NCBI GenBank assembly: GCA_022841665.1
Contig: JALHRB010000015.1
Span: forward strand, 1-64,000
Source: Pseudolabrys sp.
Lineage (GTDB): Bacteria > Pseudomonadota > Alphaproteobacteria > Rhizobiales > Xanthobacteraceae
Direction: 5' to 3'
DNA length: 64,000 nt
Positions 3,000 through 58,390 of the stretch are shown here, piece by piece (the first letter of the stretch is position 1; each line of letters starts with the position of its first letter). Below the pieces are notes generated by a model. It made no database searches and had not been told where the DNA came from. It worked only from the letters and a program-made list of their open reading frames with translations. The translations under genes were made by a program, and so were the position numbers.

Positions 3000-3043
3000 A
3001 TTTATTCTACTCTAGCGAGTTTCTACGATTTATGCACGCTCTT

Positions 3044-3093
3044 CGAGACGCCGCTAAGCGGCCTCCTCAGAATGAGGCCGATAAGGCGTCTCG
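3044..3093. repeat. Nested hairpin (CGAGACGCC ... GGCCTC/GAGGCC ... GGCGTCTCG)
   Basis: Perfect 9-nt outer arms 3044-3052 and 3085-3093 enclosing a second hairpin. Confidence 0.75.
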
Positions 3094-3622
3094 CCCGCCA
3101 CCGGCAAAAAATCTTCCCCTAGGACTATTGACTCGCTCTGCCTTCCTAGACTATATTCCTCCCCATCCCACCCGCCGAGGGGCGTCTTCCGGAGACGAGC
3201 CGAAGATGGGGTGGGAGGCGGCGCCTGCGGGCGGGGCTCGTAACCCTGCCCCCGGGAGGCCCCGGGCCAACCGTCCGCCGGCACTACGACCGGCCGCCCC
3301 CGACTGGGGCTGGACGCTGGCGGAAGACGAAAGGCGGCGGGAGCCGCCCGGATGGGAGGTGCCGAAAGCCCTCCCGGTCATGCCGCCCGGAAGATCGGTC
3401 CCCGGGGACTTACGAAGAACGCCGCAAGCGGAGCGCCGGGAGGCGCGCCTTCGCACAGCGCTCGCGAAGGCGGGACGCCTCAAGCGTCTCGGGCGGCCGC
3501 GCCGGCCGCTCAGGAGGGTGCGCAGCCCTCCGCGTTTCCCGGCGCTCCGCTCCCCTCGCTTTTATTGGGGAGACGCGCGACGGCTCTCCCCGGGCCGGTC
3601 AAGAACAGGGGCGGCGGAGCAT
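3094..3622 (-). repeat. GC-rich structured non-coding repeat, copy A (diverged homologue of 57797-58390)
   Basis: No convincing CDS. Collinear with copy B through shared blocks GCTCCGCCGCCCCTGTT, CCCCGCCCGCnGGCGCCGC, GACGCCCCTCG and a T6 tract. Confidence 0.7.
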
Positions 3623-3732
3623 TGGCTGTTTGACATTCGAATCCGCAAACGAAAGCGCGCGCCGCGCGAACGTATCGTCCGGAGAGAACGCCAACGCATC
3701 GCCCGAAGAGAGAGAGCCTCGCGTTGCGAAAC

Positions 3733-57796: not shown

Positions 57797-58390
57797 GCAT
57801 AGCTCCGCCGCCCCTGTTGTTTGCTCGGCCCCGCCTTCGCGCTGCGCGCTTCGGCGGGCGAGCCGGGCATAGCTCTGCCGCCCGTATTCTTTGGCAGGCG
57901 CCGGGTGCGCCCCTATTCCCCTTTCCCCTCCAAACAGAGAGGGGGACGGCGCGCCGAGTGACGCGACGTTCTTTCGTTAAGCGCACCTTCGTTTTGCGAA
58001 GGTGCGGCGCCTCTCGGCGCGCCATCGCGGCGATTTGAAGAGAGCTTTCTCTCCAGCGCCGGGCCGCGCTTTTCGGTGTCACCCGATGTCCGGTTTCTTT
58101 TTCAGCGCGCCTCCTTCTGGGCCGACGCACCGTCCAAGCCACCGGCAATCGAAGCGAATTGCCGTCAGCGAGCTCCTCGCAGCGGGTCATAGTGCCCGCG
58201 GGCGGGGTCCCGGCGCCGCCCGGGGTTGCGGGGGTACGTTCGTCCCCGCCCGCGGGCGCCGCATCCGATCCCACCATCAAGACGCCTCTAGATGACGCCC
58301 CTCGACGGACCGGACTCAGGCAGGATTACATACCTTGGGAATAAGATCAATAGCGTGGGAAAGTATTTTTTACCGTCCCACCGCCGCGGC
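57797..58390 (+). repeat. GC-rich structured non-coding repeat, copy B (diverged homologue of 3094-3622)
   Basis: No convincing CDS; nested hairpins at 57948-58023; collinear shared blocks with copy A and a common T6 tract. Confidence 0.7.

Follow-up and report, generated by a model that had tools for sequence, protein, structure and literature searches.

Few large structured bacterial RNAs are known beyond the classic set, and most of them are single-copy or phage-borne. Structured RNAs also occur on mobile elements, as is the case for the HEARO/OMEGA RNAs and the ORF-less group II introns, which are sometimes protein-less and multicopy. OLE and GOLLD form homo-oligomers, the evidence being covariation of adjacent loop nucleotides between palindromes along with cryo-EM, and ROOL is associated with phages and prophages (PMC12286853). 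In Bradyrhizobium the dispersed intergenic repeats Br-REP1 and Br-REP2 have RNA-structure potential and are palindromes of about 20–40 nt; a larger element around Br-REP2 was mentioned, not described (PMC5082802). The window analysed here, a stretch of 64,000 nucleotides from a Pseudolabrys genome, carries two copies, A and B, of an element that is likely to represent a new family of dispersed, independently transcribed structured RNA genes that spread as non-autonomous mobile elements. When the whole window was compared with Rfam 15 only a tRNA matched, A and seven other copies gave only implausible sub-threshold matches at a lax E-value, and no description of the element was found in the open literature. 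The family is absent from Rfam 15 and was unnamed before, and the window has no Br-REP2 sequence, even if three mismatches are allowed.

A and B had been recognised in a preliminary description as a diverged pair in opposite orientation, and the pair is genuine. Local alignment of 3094–3622, reverse-complemented, with 57797–58390 gave a score of 100.5, as compared to a mean of 20.6 (sd 3.3, maximum 30) for 300 pairs of dinucleotide-preserving shuffles and to 25 for the wrong orientation, and the sequence blocks quoted in that description were found at the positions it gave. Only two copies had been seen, however, while the genome has nine matches to the covariance model R1 described below. Relatives proved to hold copies as well; in a blast search with A, ten matches were obtained in its own genome and 20 of 41 whole genomes were matched, some with 14 or 15 scored matches. 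A third copy is found on the same contig just past the end of the window (G000:C15:70875-71031). The element is longer than had been described; A runs from about 3128, at the promoter, to about 3644, at the boxA-like end (Table 1). The orientation had been read opposite to the sense strand. Promoter and base-pair evidence, including a preference for G-U, indicates that the RNA would be transcribed from the other strand, i.e., the plus strand for A and the minus strand for B. The T tract (T6) formerly regarded as the RNA end is an A-tract of the sense strand and lies upstream of the promoter. A run of five A at this upstream tract was found in 16 of 84 copies, compared to 2.4 after shuffling, and T6 is therefore not a 3' end and is ruled out as a terminator.

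Table 1. Parts of copies A and B and their positions in the window (CM, covariance model).
Feature	Position	Strand	Remarks
A, sigma-70-type promoter TTGACT-18-TATATT	3128-3157	+	-35 at 3128-3133; -10 TATATT at 3152-3157; spacer 18
A, RNA body to boxA-like end	3164-3644	+	predicted start near 3164; CM R1 match 3164-3319, 138 bits, E=2.7e-24 in own genome
A, long-range pairing, 5' strand CGAGGGG	3176-3182	+	complement of CCCCTCG 3552-3558; covaries across copies
A, P2 loop palindrome TCCGGA	3188-3193	+	self-complementary hexamer; proposed kissing-loop dimer site
A, hairpin GCCGG-CACTACGA-CCGGC	3277-3294	+	best-covarying hairpin (helix 5)
A, long-range pairing, 3' strand CCCCTCG	3552-3558	+	partner CGAGGGG 3176-3182
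A, boxA-like 3' end GGCTGTTTGACATTCGAATCC	3624-3644	+	contains GGCTGTTTGACA
B, promoter-like block TTGATC + TATGTAAT	58350-58345 and 58332-58325	-	aligns with TTGAC block of other copies
B, RNA body	57802-58316	-	CM R1 match 58159-58316, 124 bits, E=1.4e-21
B, long-range pairing, 5' strand CGAGGGG	58298-58304	-	partner CCCCCTC 57939-57945
B, P2 loop palindrome TCTAGA	58287-58292	-	self-complementary hexamer
B, long-range pairing, 3' strand CCCCCTC	57939-57945	-	partner CGAGGGG 58298-58304

In an alignment of 14 copies the sequence CTTGAC-N16 to 18-TATA was observed at the supposed 3' end, pointing into the element on the other strand. In the closed Pseudolabrys genome G020, 12 copies have a block of about 440 bp in common, which begins at the promoter in nearly all 12 and is preceded by unrelated DNA. 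The consensus fold, derived from an alignment of 33 diverse copies (A1), has 31 pairs with double changes at 23 of these, and its best hairpin has zero broken pairs in the 33 copies. Among the fetched loci the covariance model R1 gave 87 matches, 84 of which are distinct. Over these 84 copies, in an alignment that is fitted to R1 so that the counts lean towards the model, 96.8% of cells are paired and the covariation looked for is present, with 526 double-change cells as against 155 with the 3' letters shuffled (which leaves sequence relatedness in) and at most 100 with the partners slid by 1–3 columns (a control that keeps relatedness); the unfitted 33-copy alignment gives the same picture. 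In helix 5 as many as 99.8% of cells are paired and double changes are seen at all five pairs. Non-Watson-Crick cells are G-U in 330 cases and A-C in 17, which argues for the promoter strand as the source of the RNA, and a full-length consensus fold of 12 copies gave -155.7 for the sense and -116.4 for the antisense strand, the 3' part of the alignment being rough. An RNA structure on a defined strand is demonstrated by these alignments. The predicted RNA is about 430–500 nt long, non-coding and has at least five covarying helices, and its fold is under selection in the family. The element had been described as a structured RNA or a dispersed element rather than a gene, and both hold, as the family is dispersed and has a structured RNA as its unit. 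In the copies L051, L054, and L055 the conserved 5' domain is interrupted by a short insertion that separates the P2 region from the P3 region.

The loop of the second hairpin, P2, is a self-complementary hexamer in 80 of the 84 distinct copies, compared to 22 (maximum 32) with alignment columns shuffled. Nine hexamer sequences occur, the commonest being TCATGA, TCTAGA, TCCGGA, and TCGCGA. As adjacent loop nucleotides are unable to pair within one molecule, the covariation between palindromes is evidence for pairing of two molecules, and the RNA probably forms a homodimer by kissing of its nearly always palindromic P2 loops. Alternatively, the palindrome may possibly be a DNA dyad that is bound by a dimeric protein. 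It is also possible that a local hairpin, P2a, competes with the supported P2b helix; with 381 against 363 after shuffling P2a is weakly supported, and a monomer-dimer switch is therefore not claimed. A second contact may join the 5' and 3' parts of the RNA. Directly after the 5' strand of P1 the sequence GAGGGG is found and its complement CCCCTC lies about 300–430 nt downstream, with compensated changes (GAAGGG/CCCTTC, TGAGGG/CCCTCA, CCGAGGGG/CCCCTCGG) in which one side changes and the other often follows. Of the three positions adjoining the G-run 2.38 are paired on average, compared to 2.10 in shuffled data (maximum 2.28 in 1000 shuffles). This is good, not decisive, evidence, and a long-range 5'–3' pseudoknot can be proposed with modest confidence.

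Conservation of the promoter is likewise demonstrated. TTGAC/T is present 30–40 nt upstream of the conserved RNA start in 60 of 84 copies (1.7 after shuffling), and the strict form TTGAC/T-14 to 18-TATA in 34 of 84 (0.7 after shuffling, 0 antisense). In A it is the only promoter-like site that a consensus scan found between 3000 and 3800 on either strand; the promoter of B is weaker than that of A and was missed by the scan. Ten of the 84 copies have, by pattern, a second upstream block, ATCCCC..CTTA, and 14 have neither promoter type by the patterns used. At L064, L077, L083, L091, L149, L165, and others, belonging to several families, this second, conserved block, TTATCCCC..AACCTC.CTTA, replaces the TTGAC promoter; it may serve as a promoter that is recognised by a different sigma factor.

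At the other end of the unit, downstream, 25 of 75 copies have the motif TTGGCTGTTTGA(C/A)AATTGAATC (TGTTTGA[CA]A) on the sense strand, and none of the 75 has it on the antisense strand or upstream. The 12-mer GGCTGTTTGACA occurs three times in the whole genome, i.e., in A, at C1:59189 in an element-like context similar to that of A, and in the 16S rRNA leader. GCTGTTTGACA agrees with the boxA consensus GYTCTTTAANA, which is gamma-proteobacterial, at 9 of 11 positions (PMC5725501), and exactly this motif is present in its own genome's 16S leader; boxA is absent from B. boxA recruits NusB and S10 and can oppose Rho in rRNA, and at E. coli suhB it promotes Rho-dependent termination (PMC5725501). 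In rRNA leaders boxA precedes the RNA that it protects, whereas in this family it lies at the unit's 3' end. The sense strands of A and B showed no intrinsic terminator, and for a boxA in this position, where such a terminator is lacking, end formation is the simpler guess. Presumably, the Nus complex (NusB/S10) is recruited by boxA and would act on transcription at this end, either by Nus/Rho-dependent end formation as at suhB or, alternatively, by antitermination. Each full copy is probably a transcription unit of its own, with a sigma-70-type promoter, an RNA of about 430–500 nt and, if complete, a boxA 3' end.

In a survey of the bacterial family the element was present in 169 of 300 genomes and in 34 of 47 genera. 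In the order it was present in 17 of 298 genomes, several of which have their own multicopy sets and two a single copy, and in the class sample none of 288 other genomes matched; these large samples were searched with stricter filters, so that weak matches may be lost. The hosts include many relatives of Pseudolabrys from soil and water. Closed genomes with the element have 3 to 50 copies each, and related genomes differ in copy number, from 0 to about 50. Named matches include MAGs of Pseudolabrys, Rhodoplanes, and Pseudorhodoplanes. Similar regions had been mentioned for Bradyrhizobiaceae, which is correct in that the family is spread through this group, but not for genus g41 (genomes of 6–9 Mb), where no match was found in the members listed in the order search although most sister genera have the element. 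This absence is useful for a presence/absence search for a partner protein. Two genomes of a distant family (f11) carry clear single-copy homologues, L094 and L095, with different neighbours; these are possibly relics or recent arrivals. Phage or plasmid cargo was considered and rejected, as collections of phages, plasmids, and viral contigs gave no match by blastn or exact pattern, a type of search by which distant phage or plasmid members could be missed.

The dispersal of the copies is accompanied by empty sites. At the site of B the aligned flanks are separated by 605 nt here and by 50–148 nt in five Pseudolabrys relatives, and in a sixth relative the joined flanks match contiguously. At a second locus, in another genus, the element is found in three genomes and missing from six. 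The empty orthologous sites at these two loci point to movement of the copies. B is flanked by a phosphatase gene and an ABC transporter gene, and in a seventh relative (L193, G002) a separate copy, in opposite orientation, is located after the same phosphatase gene, the neighbourhood of which is possibly a preferred target. The copies have sharp ends and unrelated flanks. Promoters and stems are swapped mosaically between copies within a genome, which is a sign of gene conversion, and it may be by this process that copies are homogenised. A comparison of 13 copies from one genome gave no consistent terminal inverted repeats or target duplications. At 177 element loci no neighbour protein was found to recur, be it a nuclease, a transposase, or a reverse transcriptase, and the commonest neighbour ORF, acetyltransferase-like or HigA-like by eye, was seen at no more than 4 other loci of the 177. 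An autonomous element with a protein encoded in cis is ruled out, as no protein recurs nearby; the copies would be moved in trans by an enzyme encoded elsewhere. Directly upstream of A a REP-like palindrome (TTCGAGACGC..CTCCTCA..TGAGG) is found at 3038–3092, and the same palindrome lies directly upstream at L041, L042, L045, L048, L049, L135, and L197, in different genomes, which suggests that the repeats share insertion neighbourhoods or are linked. At 16–609 on the plus strand of the window a ThiC-like C-terminal ORF has an apparent in-frame low-complexity insertion of 22 residues, perhaps a coding region entered by a repeat.

Several other readings of the element have to be weighed. That it is a protein-coding gene or a small-ORF family is refuted for the copies tested and has next to no probability. 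Long GC-rich ORFs do occur, and A is overlapped by three, of 341, 110, and 93 aa, but substitutions between A and two paralogues are even by phase (17/21/21 and 23/27/27), indels are mostly of 1, 2, 4, 5, 8, or 10 nt and thus mostly not multiples of 3, no frame is consistently open (8–15 of 79 copies per frame), and the search for a conserved ORF gave no purifying selection between copies. For annotation this is a warning not to take the long GC-rich ORFs of these gaps for genes. It is very unlikely that the element serves as a 5' leader or cis-regulator of the gene downstream. The ABC transporter gene downstream of B is on the same strand as B, and boxA motifs can act in leaders, but A faces a gene on the opposite strand, downstream genes are on the same strand in 14 cases and on the opposite strand in 20, i.e., without bias by rough gene calls, and no downstream gene recurs. 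Dispersed intergenic copies with empty sites and a palindromic hexamer would also agree with a DNA-level repeat, REP- or MITE-like, the symmetry of which serves a DNA-binding or transposing protein while the RNA structure is incidental. This explanation is disfavoured and has little probability, because the excess of G-U over A-C reveals that selection acts on the RNA of one strand, covariation extends to many long-range pairs that are not palindromic, terminal inverted repeats and target duplications were not consistently present, and the aligned promoter is on one strand only.

The strongest competing explanation is a housekeeping or regulatory RNA, present in several copies, that serves the host, for example by scaffolding or titrating the Nus complex or ribosomal protein S10, with selection for dosage and dispersal as a by-product. 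Such a role is possible, if somewhat doubtful, and agrees with the strong purifying selection that the fold experiences in many lineages, the promoters of its own, the rRNA-like boxA 3' ends, the gene conversion that keeps copies alike, and the single-copy members L094 and L095 in another family. Against it stand the swings in copy number between related genomes and the sites that are polymorphic within a genus, both of which fit a mobile element better than a dosage-fixed gene, as well as the many genomes of the order from which the element is missing. It is tempting to speculate, and no more than tentatively, that the element is a selfish mobile RNA gene, the whole payload of which is a homodimerising structured RNA, transcribed independently, that borrows boxA and Nus and drives its own spread with no protein. 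A mobile element and a host-serving RNA can both be true together.

If the likely reading of a mobile family of RNA genes is correct, a class of mobile elements built from RNA alone and a new use of the rRNA boxA signal are possible. More than half of the sampled genomes of its bacterial family carry the element, with up to about 50 copies in a genome, and on an evolutionary time scale its movement continues. It is also a clean test case for RNA homodimerisation, as loops can be swapped between natural palindromes. With MITEs and classical DNA transposons it has insertion polymorphism in common, but not terminal inverted repeats and target-site duplications. Of a boxA/Nus target the family has the motif match, which the rrn leader shares, but only 25 of 75 copies carry it. 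Like Br-REP1 and Br-REP2, the family is dispersed, intergenic, of RNA-structure potential and from the same bacterial group, but those repeats are short palindromes. The HEARO/OMEGA RNAs and group II introns resemble it in being structured, mobile, and sometimes present in many copies without a protein, and differ in that the present family gave no Rfam match and has a unit that starts with its own promoter. ROOL differs in its phage association, as searches of phage records and of viral contigs, at the sensitivity that was applied, gave no family member. OLE, ROOL, and GOLLD are likewise large multi-helix non-coding RNAs with symmetric palindromic kissing loops (PMC12286853), and the palindromic loop that covaries between palindromes, as in OLE and GOLLD, is seen here in the aligned sequences (80 of 84 copies, nine hexamers). 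The family is distinguished from these three by its lack of an Rfam match, by its 3 to 50 dispersed copies per closed genome, by a promoter of its own for each copy, and by a boxA end in part of the copies.
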